A DNA stretch of 40,794 nt from Nitrospirota bacterium (lineage in GTDB: Bacteria > Nitrospirota > Nitrospiria > Nitrospirales > Nitrospiraceae), in NCBI GenBank assembly GCA_013388555.1, contig JACAFD010000088.1, positions 1 through 40,794 on the forward strand, written 5' to 3'. The notes beneath the pieces were generated by a model that was not told where the DNA came from, searched no databases, and saw only the letters and a program-made list of their open reading frames with translations. The translations under genes and the position numbers were made by a program. This document shows positions 1,384 through 40,794 of this stretch, piece after piece; within the stretch, counting starts at the first letter, position 1; the number at the start of each line of letters is the position of its first letter.

Positions 1384-1508
1384 CGTGGGCCTCTCTTTCC
1401 GCTGAGAACGATTTGTTCAAGTGTAGCAGGTGAGACGCGACCACGGTAGAAATAGCGCGAGGCGGTTGAGGAGACATCGTTGTTGCAAGCAGAGAATCCA
1501 CTTGACAG

Positions 1509-1631
1509 CAGGATGCTCAAAAAGGCTGTCCAGCAAGGCCGCAGCGAGTGAGGGCCCGAGGCGTACCCTTGGGGTACGTTGAGGGTCTGAACGATGCGAG
1601 AACGCCGCTGGCGGACTTTTTGAGCATCCTG
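1509..1631 (+). repeat. interspersed palindromic element, copy 1
   Basis: Perfect 16-bp terminal inverted repeat CAGGATGCTCAAAAAG (1509-1524) / CTTTTTGAGCATCCTG (1616-1631); central CGTACCC-TTG-GGGTACG palindrome; ends 1 nt before the rimO stop codon. Confidence 0.85.
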
Positions 1632-1632
1632 C

Positions 1633-3012
1633 TTATGTGACGATGTGGCCTACAAGGTCGTAGAGAGCCGCATCAGTGATTTCGACCTTGACGAGTTCGC
1701 CTGCAGTGGCTGATCCATCATTGATATACACAACACCGTCGATTTCCGGAGCCAGCCCTTCATGACGTGCTTCGAGCAGTAATTCTGTCTCTTCTGCGAC
1801 CCCTTCGACCAAAACTTCCATGACTGAGCCGATACGAGCCTGCCCTCGCGCCGCCGCAATCCCTTCTTGCACAGCCAGAAGTTCATTCCTTCGCTCATGC
1901 ATGACTGATCTTTCGACCTTGTCATCAAACTCGACTGCGGGCGTGTCTTCTTCGTCTGAATACAAAAATACCGCCACTCGATCGAACTCGGTCTCTTCCA
2001 CATATTCCCTGAGTTCCTCAAACGCCCATTCTGTTTCTCCTGGAAATCCCACGATGAAGGCCGTACGAAACGTGACGCCGGGAATGCGCGTCCGAATCCG
2101 ATCGACGAGGGAATTGATGGCAGCGCGATCACCAAGTCGGTGCATCCGCTTGAGCATCTGATTGTTAATATGTTGCAGCGGCATATCGATATACTTGGTA
2201 ATCTTTTCCTCTCCTGCATAGAGATCCAATAACTCCTCTGACACTTGCTGAGGATAGAGATAGAAGGGTCTGATCCAGCGCAAGTCCTTCACCTTCACCA
2301 ACTCGCGAAGCAGGGCAACGATCCCTTGACGCAGGCCGAGGTCGACGCCGTAATTCACCGTGTCCTGGGAAATGAGATTCACCTCCTTCACTCCTTCAGC
2401 TGCAAGGCGAGTGACTTCTGCCACAATGGATTCCACCGGGCGGCTACGCTGTTTACCCCGCATCAGAGGAATCGCACAGAATGCACAGTTGCGGTTACAG
2501 CCTTCGGCGATCTTCACATAGGCACTATGGGCCTTTCCGAGACGGAGTCGTGGTGCATCTGCGTCATATAGGTAAGGAGGCTCGCTGATCCAGAGCCGCT
2601 GCTGCCGGTTTTTGGGCGCCAACAGATCCCGGCAAATCTGCGCAATCTTTCCAAACTCACCGGTTCCAACTACCCCGTCCAGCTCCGGGAGTTGCTTAAG
2701 GAGATCTCCTTGGTATCGTTGGGCCAGACAGCCGGCAGCGATTAACACACGACAGGATCCTGTTTTTTTTAGTTTGCCGTGTGAGATAATCGTATCAATC
2801 GACTCCTGCTTGGCCTCTTCGATGAAACCACAAGTATTAATGATGACCACTTCAGCTTTCTTCGGGTCATCTGTCAGGGCAAAGCCATCTGTCACCAAAG
2901 TACCTAGCATGACTTCGGAATCGACCTGGTTTTTCGAACAACCCAGATTGACAAACCCAATGGTGGTCTTCTTGCTACCTGATCGAATCGGAGTGATCAA
3001 TCGTGAGGGCAT
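1633..3012 (-). CDS. rimO: ribosomal protein S12 methylthiotransferase
   Basis: Radical SAM/MiaB-like family: GFVNLGCSKNQVDSE, INTCGFIEEAKQES, CNRNCAFCAIPLMRGKQRSR. Confidence 0.95.
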   Translation of the reverse strand: MPSRLITPIRSGSKKTTIGFVNLGCSKNQVDSEVMLGTLVTDGFALTDDPKKAEVVIINTCGFIEEAKQESIDTIISHGKLKKTGSCRVLIAAGCLAQRYQGDLLKQLPELDGVVGTGEFGKIAQICRDLLAPKNRQQRLWISEPPYLYDADAPRLRLGKAHSAYVKIAEGCNRNCAFCAIPLMRGKQRSRPVESIVAEVTRLAAEGVKEVNLISQDTVNYGVDLGLRQGIVALLRELVKVKDLRWIRPFYLYPQQVSEELLDLYAGEEKITKYIDMPLQHINNQMLKRMHRLGDRAAINSLVDRIRTRIPGVTFRTAFIVGFPGETEWAFEELREYVEETEFDRVAVFLYSDEEDTPAVEFDDKVERSVMHERRNELLAVQEGIAAARGQARIGSVMEVLVEGVAEETELLLEARHEGLAPEIDGVVYINDGSATAGELVKVEITDAALYDLVGHIVT

Positions 3013-13576: not shown

Positions 13577-13743
13577 CAGGGCACTGAAAAAGTCGCCCTT
13601 CTCACCCGCCCAACCCTGATGCGCCGAGACGCACCTCTTCCCAAACTTCGTTCTCGCTTCGCTCAGAGACTCAACGTACAGAAGCGTACGCCTCGCCTCT
13701 TCGCTCACTGCGGCCTTGCTGCACAGCCTTTTTGAGCATCCTG
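13577..13743 (-). repeat. interspersed palindromic element, copy 2 (inverted orientation)
   Basis: Reverse complement begins CAGGATGCTCAAAAAGGCTGTGCAGCAAGGCCGCAGTG and ends ACTTTTTCAGTGCCCTG; internal GTACG...CGTAC and GAGAACGAAG motifs shared with the other copies. Confidence 0.75.
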
Positions 13744-37529: not shown

Positions 37530-37655
37530 GCCGATCCGCACAAGAGCCGGATCTGCCAACTCTATCCGTATAACACGCCATTGGTTCCCCTGAAAAATAC
37601 GCGACAAACTCTACCATTTCAGTCAGTGGCAATTTTTCTGGTAGTTGGCCCAGGA

Positions 37656-37843
37656 GGATGCTCAAAAAGGCCGTCCAGCGAGGCCGCAGGCGAATCGAAA
37701 CCGGAAGCGTACCCTCAGGGGCGCACGGTGCGACGAATAAGGAGCACCACGTTTGTGCGCGCCGCCGAGTCGGTGAGGCGGCCGGGTCCCCGTTGAGGAT
37801 TTTGATGAGTCGAGAACGAAGCTGGCGGGCTTTTTCAGCATCC
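37656..37843 (+). repeat. interspersed palindromic element, copy 3
   Basis: GGATGCTCAAAAAGGCCGTCCAGCGAGGCCGCAG ... GAGAACGAAGCTGGCGGGCTTTTTCAGCATCC; ends just before the cysNC stop codon. Confidence 0.8.
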
Positions 37844-37845
37844 GA

Positions 37846-39690
37846 CTAGATTGAATACTGAAATGTCGGTTTAGCCCCAATCGCCTGAGCCAACACTCCA
37901 CGGCGCTTGAGTTCCTCAATAATTCGACGAGTGGCCGCATCAAAGTCTGCCGGGCCAGACAATACGATATCCGTATTGGGCGGGGCTTCTTCGGGCGTCT
38001 TACTCATATGGACGGCGATCACAGGGACCGGGTGGACGAGCGTGCGGATGACCTGTGCCGCTTCGACGTAGGCCATGCCAAAAGGATTGGTCGTTGAGAC
38101 AACGATCAGCCCTGTATCGACCAGCAGCCTTGCCACCTCACCATAGCGGCGAGCCATTTCGGCTGCCTGCCCTCGCTCTCCTTCTGAAAGGTCTGCATCG
38201 AGTCCCCGTCGGAGATTCTCTCCATCGAGCAGATAGGCATGCCGGCCATCAGCCACAAGCCTGGCCTCGATGGTCCTAGCCAGGAAAGACTTCCCCGTAT
38301 GCCGCCCTCCTGTCACCAGCACAATAGCGGCTCGGTGGCCATATTGCTGCGCTCGATCCTCGACGCCGACCTCGCCCTTCACCCAGGCAAAATCGCGCTG
38401 CCGAGCTTCTTCGCGGAGAAATTCCTGATCGTCATGGACCAGCTCTGTCACGATGCCGCCACCGGCAATGTCGTATTCATCCACAAGGACGAACCGGCCA
38501 GTCGATTCAAACGAGGCTGAGAGATCGAACGCCACCGGCATTTTCGCCCGAATGGTCAATTCAGCAACTTGATTCTTATTCACCACATTGCTGCCTTGCT
38601 GCTGAGCCAGATCCATTGTGTCGATGATCCGGTGGATGGTCGCCACTTCACAATCCACTTCCTTCGTGGCCACTCTGAGCTGATAGCGCCGCCCCCGCTC
38701 CAACGGCTTCCGGCCCAGCCAGAACACATTCGCGCGCAAGGCCGTCGACACCAGCGGCAGTTCACCTTGATGCGAGGCGATCTCCCCTCGCTCCACAAAG
38801 ATCTGCTCATCGAGCGTCACACCGACTGATTGGCCAGCCTGGCCTTCTGTGGGCGGAGGATCGACGTTGAACGCTTCAATGGACTTGACCGTCGCTCGTT
38901 TGTTCGACGGTGAAAAGACGAGGGAATCACCGACCTTCACACGCCCGGCTGTGACCCGCCCTGTAATAATGCGGCGAGCGTCGAATTTATACACATCTTG
39001 AATAGGCAATCGCAGCGGCTGTTCTGAACGTCCTGGCTCCTTCTGAAACGCACTGAGCACGTCCAGCACGGTGGGGCCGCTATACCATGGCATCTGCTCG
39101 CTCCGGTTGGCGATATTATCTCCGAGCTTGGCGCTGACCGGAATGATCTGTTGTGGAACCGCCTTAAACTGCCCGAGGAACTCCCGATATTCCTTTTCAA
39201 TCCCGTCGAACACGTCCTGCCGATAGCCGACCAGATCCATCTTGTTCACCACGACGGCAAACTGGCGGACGCCCAGAAGCGATAAGAGATACCCGTGCTT
39301 CTTGGATTGTTCCTTCACTCCCTCCAACGCATCGATCAGCAACAACGCCCCTTCGGCTCTGGCTGCCCCGGAGATCATGTTCTTAAGAAACTCCTTGTGT
39401 CCCGGCGCATCGATGATGATGTAGTGCCGGCCCTTCCAGCCAAAGAACGTCCGCGCCGTATCGATGGTAATGCCCTGCTCCTGCTCCTCAAGAAAGGCAT
39501 CGAACAGGAACGCATATTCGAATTCCTTCCCCTGCTGCCGACAGATGGCTTGGACCTTTTCAAGTTTGCCATCCGGCAACGATCCCGTATCGGCATAGAG
39601 ACGCCCCAGCAATGTGGACTTTCCATGGTCCACATGCCCGACGATGACGATGTTTAAATTGTCAGATGGTTTTGAGATTGTTTCTGCCAT
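37846..39690 (-). CDS. cysNC: bifunctional sulfate adenylyltransferase subunit 1 / adenylylsulfate kinase
   Basis: GTPase motifs [37 protein letters not shown]-terminal APS kinase [20 protein letters not shown]...[11 protein letters not shown]. Confidence 0.95.
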
Positions 39691-39700
39691 GCTTAAACTC

Positions 39701-39825
39701 CAGAATGTTCAAACAGGCAGCCCCGCAAGGCCGCAGGAAGCGGGACAACTGAGGCGTACCCTTGCGGTACGTCGCAGGGAGGCACGCGACCGAGAACGAA
39801 GCTGGATGCCTGGTTCAACATTCTG
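39701..39825 (+). repeat. interspersed palindromic element, copy 4 (diverged), inside the cys operon
   Basis: Ends CAGAATGTTCAAACAGGC / GCCTGGTTCAACATTCTG; core GCAAGGCCGCAG, GGCGTACCCTTGCGGTACG, GAGAACGAAGCTGG; ends 4 nt before the cysD stop. Confidence 0.75.
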
Positions 39826-39828
39826 CCA

Positions 39829-40626
39829 CTACATGTACCCGTCTTTTCGCAGCAGCTCCATCCCACGCCCTTCATCCTGCGCGCGGCCTGATCGCTCGGC
39901 CACTGTGGTATGCCGTAATTCGTCGATGATGTCGTCCACGGATTTTGCCGTCGATTTGATCGGCGTCGTGCAAGGCGCGCAGCCGAGGCTGCGATAGCGA
40001 GTCCCATCCCCCTTGTCGAGATAGAGATCCATGAAGGGAATGCTCTCGAGCTTGATATATTCCCAAATATTAATTTCCGTCCAATCCAGCAGCGGGTGAA
40101 TTCGAATGTGTGTTCCTGGAGGAAATGTCGTTTTGAATTGATCCCAAAGCTCCGGAGGCTGATCGCGGAAATCCCAATCACCATGTTTGTCACGGGGCGA
40201 AAAGTAGCGCTCCTTGGCTCTCGTCCCTTCCTCATCTGCCCGCACACCGAGAATGATGCCTGTATAACCCTTTTGCTCGATCAATTGCTTGAGTCCATTC
40301 GTTTTCAGGGCCGTGCAGCAATTGACGCGGCCCAACGTATGATTCATTCCAGCCGCAAGCGCTTCCTTGTTTTGCCCCACGACCAACTTGAGGCCCCATT
40401 CACGAGCCACGCGATCGCGATATTCGATCATTGAGGGAATTTTGTAGCTCGTGTCGACGTGGAGGAGGGGGAAAGGAACATGGCCGAAAAAGGCCTTTCT
40501 AGCCAACCACAGTAGCACGGTCGAATCCTTCCCCATCGACCACAGCATGGCCAGGTTGTCAAAATGCTTATAGGCTTCCCGGAGGATGTAGACGCTCTGG
40601 TCTTCTAATTGACGAAGGTGATGCAC
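39829..40626 (-). CDS. cysD: sulfate adenylyltransferase subunit 2
   Basis: [69 protein letters not shown]. Confidence 0.96.
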
Positions 40627-40647
40627 GGACTCGATCCTCTCCTAACA

Positions 40648-40794
40648 GGATGCTGAAAAAGGGGGGATGGGGTAGCTGGGACGATCCCCTTGCTCGCGCA
40701 ACGCGCGGTCAAGGACTCCCCTCGTTGGACGCGCGCAGTTGGGATCATCCCATCCACCCCTTATAAAGTGACCGCTCACTGCGGCCTTGCTGGA
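40648..40794 (-). repeat. interspersed palindromic element, copy 5, truncated by the window end
   Basis: Begins CAGGATGCTGAAAAAG; the visible end CACTGCGGCCTTGCTG matches the conserved inner end of copy 2; large internal inverted repeat GGGGATGGGG.../...CCCATCCACCCC. Confidence 0.65.

Follow-up and report, generated by a model that had tools for sequence, protein, structure and literature searches.

Among short bacterial repeats, ERIC elements are imperfect intergenic palindromes of up to hundreds of copies with a TA target duplication, and BOX elements are modular. ERIC insertions at the 3' ends of genes affect mRNA decay; Correia repeat enclosed elements of Neisseria are MITEs of more than 120 copies that form hairpins in transcripts, which are processed by RNase III; SPRITE of Streptococcus pneumoniae is terminator-like, and BOX, RUP and SPRITE insert into one another (PMC10969869). 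The REP unit is 20-40 bp long (PMC3733652). IS5 of E. coli inserts at YTAR and duplicates YTAR (PMC10359306).

The Nitrospira hairpin family described here is like IS5-family insertion sequences (ISs) and MITEs in its IS5-model DDE transposase, duplicated YTAR target, inverted ends and small non-coding derivatives, but in the Nitrospira MITE the two ends are not alike, the hairpin inside carries an arm that looks like a third end, and the cores can be interchanged. Its size, copy number and probable RNA effects are like those of ERIC and Correia elements. Its sequence is unrelated to either; unlike ERIC, it has a YTAR duplication, an IS5 parent and cores replaced within covarying arms. Correia elements are mostly found upstream of genes, with promoters, whereas the Nitrospira elements lie mainly past stop codons and have variable cores. 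In contrast to BOX, RUP and SPRITE, whole cores alternate in Nitrospira inside one shell at one orthologous site. The literature searched contained no description of the hairpin family or its sequence, and Nitrospira repeats appeared there as incidental mentions only.

The window (the whole stretch of DNA analysed, 40,794 nt of contig JACAFD010000088.1) carries five copies, which are listed below with their host genes.

1458..1508, minus strand: putative tail module of copy 1, decayed, with a CTCG end (CTAG in relatives), recognised by comparison with genomes G004, G005, G006 and G031
1509..1631, minus strand: copy 1, hairpin with GTAC core, 1 nt past the rimO stop (TAA, 1633-1635)
1633..3012, minus strand: rimO, host gene of copy 1 (TIGR01125, above cut-off)
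13577..13743, plus strand: copy 2, hairpin with GTAC core plus CTCACCCGCCC insert, left arm degenerate
37654..37845, minus strand: copy 3, hairpin with GGTGCTCCTTATTCGTCGCACC core, immediately past the cysN stop
37846..39690, minus strand: cysN, host gene of copies 3 and 4 (TIGR02034, above cut-off)
39701..39825, minus strand: copy 4, hairpin with arm type I (CAGAATGTTG/GAACATTCTG), which occupies the gap between cysD and cysN
39829..40626, minus strand: cysD, with copies 4 and 5 on its two sides (NF003587, above cut-off)
40646..40794, plus strand: copy 5, hairpin upstream of cysD with a core of the GATC type, truncated where the contig stops

All five copies reported in the first-pass annotation are real, with the limits of copies 3 and 5 moved by 2 bases (to 37654-37845 and to a start at 40646, respectively). 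The central GTAC hairpin that it ascribed to the whole group is present in copies 1, 2 and 4; the core of copy 3 is ~190 bp long and unlike the GTAC type, and the core of copy 5 is based on GGGACGATCCCC/GATCATCCCA and lacks GTAC. The adjacency to stop codons noted there holds: the gap is 1 nt between rimO and copy 1 and 3 nt between cysD and copy 4, and copy 3 abuts the cysN stop. Copy 2, in the clpP-tig interval, runs antisense to these two genes, and the C-terminal part of cysN is adenylylsulfate-kinase-like. The 16-base arm pattern (≤3 mismatches) had 10 matches in the window versus 0.66 expected, a number reached in 0 of 100 shuffles. RNA folding was strong (z of -7.25, -4.21 and -5.04, the first being copy 1 at -57.9 kcal/mol), and the Rfam scan of the window detected tRNAs and the SRP RNA only, with no hairpin match above the gathering score.

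A scan of the source genome (3.52 Mb, ≤2 mismatches), one of the checks proposed in the first-pass annotation, confirmed the family with 273 arm matches (137 + 136) versus six (3 + 3) in the reversed control. The arm was also present in 31 of 31 Nitrospira congeners searched, at 15 to 362 matches per genome and in tens to hundreds nearly everywhere, the two smallest genomes (1.7-1.8 Mb) having the fewest; G016 had 27 matches genome-wide and G021 had 15. Other genera of the same family gave 7 to 49 arm matches, and the records matching a longer 28-base arm carry the names Nitrospira, Nitrospiraceae or Nitrospirota. From 779 kb of contigs of the source genome we extracted 72 hairpins with both arms, mainly 122-126 bp in length, followed by 153 bp and longer; the element itself is a hairpin of 123-330 bp with a tail. 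Several contigs of this genome (e.g., C17, C24, C77, C235 and the window end) stop in or near elements, and the family therefore probably breaks short-read assemblies.

When the copies are oriented, they read YTAR-CAGGATGCTGAAAAAG, tCCGCCAGC, core, GCGGCCTTGCTGG and CTTTTTGAGCATCCTG, and many copies extend ~75 nt further downstream, terminating in TTTTTCCGCAGCCTG and followed by a second YTAR. The complete unit (n = 56, collected across all loci) is ~200 bp long and consists of YTAR-CAGGATGCTGAAAAAG, the hairpin (stem, core and inner arm CTTTTTGAGCATCCTG), a tail of ~60-75 nt that terminates in TTTTTCCGCAGCCTG, and YTAR. Since complete units have a tail and a second YTAR, the hairpin seen at first is a component of a mobile unit 200 bp long; the first-pass annotation had treated this component as the entire element and did not notice the tail, the duplicated YTAR or the exchange of cores. 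The unit is short and non-coding with terminal inverted repeats, as in a MITE (ends CAGGATGCTGAAAAA / CAGGCTGCGGAAAAA); its two ends, CAGGATGCTG and CAGGCTGCGG, are unlike each other, and the hairpin inside has the third end-like arm. In the orthologues of copy 5 in G014, G017, G028 and G029 the tail is visible.

Next, we examined target duplication and the parent of the family. In the 41 complete elements flanked at both ends by TA, one outer base was identical in 36 versus 23.3 expected and the second in 30 versus 20.5 expected, and 0 of 5000 shuffles was as high. The flanking 4-mers match beyond chance, which gives a 4-bp target duplication, YTAR, and rules out a duplication of TA only. A search for the tail end across the genus found two places with an inward-facing pair 1.33 kb apart (L252 and L253). 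These are copies, in two congeners, of a 1.32-kb IS with YTAR flanks, one open frame of ~366 codons and an identical 16-base terminal inverted repeat, CAGGCTGCGGAAAAAC, at both ends. The 366-aa protein matched NF033581 (IS5 family transposase) at 280.6 bits (cut-off 140; E 1.4e-83) and contains the DUF772 (PF05598) and DDE_Tnp_1 (PF01609) domains. Compared with the ends of this IS, the tail end of the MITE is exact and the hairpin end has other bases at positions 5 and 9. More distant IS copies in G028 and G031 also have YTAR on both sides, and an IS of another genus (g3, G033) has an end, CAGGATGTTGAAAAAC, that is an arm variant of the MITEs of that genome. An intact parent was not found in the fragmented source genome (G000) at E 1e-40. 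The duplication and the transposase with matching termini that the first-pass annotation had proposed to look for are both found, and its non-autonomous reading is supported by the autonomous relative in two congeners. An IS630 parent, suspected at first from the CTAG and TA flanks, was rejected: 30 DDE_3 loci lacked matching ends, except one at a contig edge.

The age of the insertions differs between sites. Upstream of cysD (the copy 5 site), the element occupies the same place in six congeners including the source genome, and most other congeners have plain sequence, CATTGACCATACGAGAGGATCGAG or similar; copy 5 is therefore an insertion. Every congener with a readable cysD-cysN gap (the copy 4 site) had an element there, including G016 and G021, genomes of 1.7-1.8 Mb in which nearly all other copies have been lost. 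At the rimO site (copy 1), most species have an element and a few, e.g., G016 and G021, have remnants. We concluded from the filled and empty sites and the retention at cysD-cysN that the family is mobile and that some old copies have been retained.

Of the 72 hairpins of the source genome, 34 have a long open frame that ends no more than 14 nt from their outer end, versus 4.9% of non-coding YTAR-site sides, gene context here being based on the 779 kb of contigs and a simple gene caller (69% coding, lossy). This location can be explained without any function because YTAR contains TAA/TAG and insertion into a stop would restore the stop. A strict polarity, in which the hairpin end faces the stop, was considered and dropped: the ratio of hairpin end to tail was 34 versus 3 in all hairpins of the source genome and only 16 versus 12 in complete elements, the excess in the former being due to the tail, which displaces the other end. 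The hairpin has the make-up of a 3'-end structure (A-tract, GC stem and short T-tract) readable on both strands, and a stem with a 5-T tract (CTTTTTG) is present; the terminator scan flagged no cys copy. The terminator or mRNA-stability role suggested in the first-pass annotation is compatible with these data. We regard it as an even bet that the hairpin terminates transcription weakly in both directions or protects the mRNA 3' end, a role favoured by its retention, covariation and T-tract. Copy 4 lies inside an apparent operon and its T-tract is interrupted; as a terminator it would have to be leaky, or a processing hairpin, since the type I tract reads CTGTTTG.

At a given orthologous site, compensatory changes keep the outer stems paired, and a G.G mismatch stays constant within them. 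In the rimO-site orthologues, 94.1% of cells were paired and 4 pairs had changed on both sides; stem column 5 is AU, CG or GC. In the cysD-cysN orthologues, 98.1% of cells were paired with 7 doubly changed pairs, although these changes mostly represent two whole-arm alleles and hence fewer events than the counts. At both sites 0 of 500 shuffles reached the observed values (cells paired and covariation score at rimO). Position 10 is G opposite G in 84% of 57 hairpins of the source genome and in 23 of 23 cysD-cysN orthologues. The examined IS ends also have G at position 10, and the inner arm, read outward, has C; we infer that G at position 10 marks true ends.

The same shell encloses five or more kinds of core in a single genome: GTAC (40 plus composites), AAGGTTAAGG (15), GGTGCTCC (4), GATC/GCGCGC (4 plus composites) and others; certain core motifs are also found outside recognised shells. 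The rimO site has undergone at least 8 core-type changes across 20 labelled species, and the cysD-cysN site 6-8 arm-type flips on two host gene trees. In the sister species G028 and G029 (~92% identical), all 5 comparable shared sites differ, namely rimO, upstream of cysD, cysD-cysN (by arm type) and two more. G004 and G017 have the same unusual CAGGGTG/CACCCTG arms at rimO and different cores. The allele shared by G007 and G028 is 97.8% alike over 275 bp versus 90.3% in cysD, and that shared by G000 and G017 is 96.9% alike versus 88.8% in the flanking gene. Short-tract recombination between copies or between species is the best account of these allele and core patterns.

We put at roughly 0.8 the probability that the family consists of polar IS5-type MITEs with stop-codon insertion, tail decay, a 3'-end hairpin that is kept and cores recombined via the shared arms. 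An IS5-family transposase would mobilise the ~200-bp unit in trans; insertion into a stop codon would regenerate the stop, so that copies abut gene ends; afterwards the tail would usually decay and the hairpin be kept as a 3'-end structure, and short-tract homologous recombination via the shared arms would replace cores, the donor being another copy or the corresponding locus in a different species. The first-pass annotation had called the family REP/MITE-like, and the target duplications, empty sites and matching transposase uphold the MITE half of this name. REP/BIME elements moved by a RAYT (Y1) transposase are likewise high-copy extragenic palindromes, known by hairpins with a conserved mismatch, and part of the genus encodes Y1_Tnp proteins. 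We consider this origin very improbable, as an IS5 parent with the same DDE-type ends and the 4-bp YTAR duplication indicate an IS5-type MITE, the hairpin with its tail is longer than a REP unit, and the family does not show the 20-40-nt palindromes with a linked Y1 transposase that define REP/RAYT systems. A RAYT parent was rejected because copy number does not track Y1/RAYT transposases: G001 (225 arm matches) and G004 (>220) have no Y1_Tnp match.

The hairpins might instead be purely selfish repeats placed at stops by the YTAR target and purifying selection, with stems that look conserved through the exchange of whole alleles. Stop codons within YTAR, complete elements that face stops with either end, and alleles that pass between species all fit such an explanation; we think it rather unlikely because the compensations at rimO use several pair types at one position (column 5), the cysD-cysN copy persists in all readable species, even those with 27 and 15 arm matches, and the arms stay paired while the G.G mismatch is left unrepaired. 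Chimeric assembly, in which short-read assemblers join arms of different copies, could partly explain the core differences and is the main caution on core exchange at shared sites. Many of the genomes are fragmented MAGs, contigs often stop in elements, and some G031 hairpins contain runs of N. As a general explanation, however, it is improbable: the shared arms span just ~25-40 bp, site-specific arm variants flank swapped cores (CAGGGTG..CACCCTG in G004 and G017), and one allele recurs at one site in independent assemblies. In two cysD-cysN gaps (L167 in G026 and L183 in G012), the left and right arms are of unlike types; these hybrids are either recombinants or assembly chimeras.

More speculatively, and with less than an even chance of being right, the shell may be a maintained docking hairpin and the interior an exchangeable cassette, in which the constant G10 would mark the true ends for the transposase and the inner-arm base would bar a cut between hairpin and tail. 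Arm-guided recombination or template switching would then exchange palindromic cores of several unrelated types in situ, at a rate above that of host-gene divergence, and Nitrospira would draw on a common pool of 3'-end hairpins that can replace one another. These bacteria, which are major nitrite oxidisers, are hard to manipulate. The same gene ends with different hairpin cores form a natural series, so the effect of a 3' hairpin on expression is testable by comparing species; the covarying stems with their preserved mismatch make it possible to ask directly if selection acts on recognition by the transposase or on RNA structure.

Other arrangements were also observed. In L048, L049, L057, L078, L086 and L257, the left arm TAGCAGGATGCTGAAAAAG is followed by TTGGTTTGTTTGG / AACCAGATAGACCAGA repeats or unique sequence, representing another core class or truncated elements. 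A CTCACCCGCCCA...GGCGCGCCGAGACGCGCC module is located at the hairpin base in copy 2 (13577-13743) and in L059, L061, L063, L067 and L073; it also occurs outside recognised shells, 5 of its 10 occurrences being inside. A different palindromic MITE of ~140 bp, with IS5-type ends CAGGCTGCGGAAAAAC and CTAG flanks, was found at L254 and L259 (G023:C50 and G031:C17), apparently at the same site in the two species.
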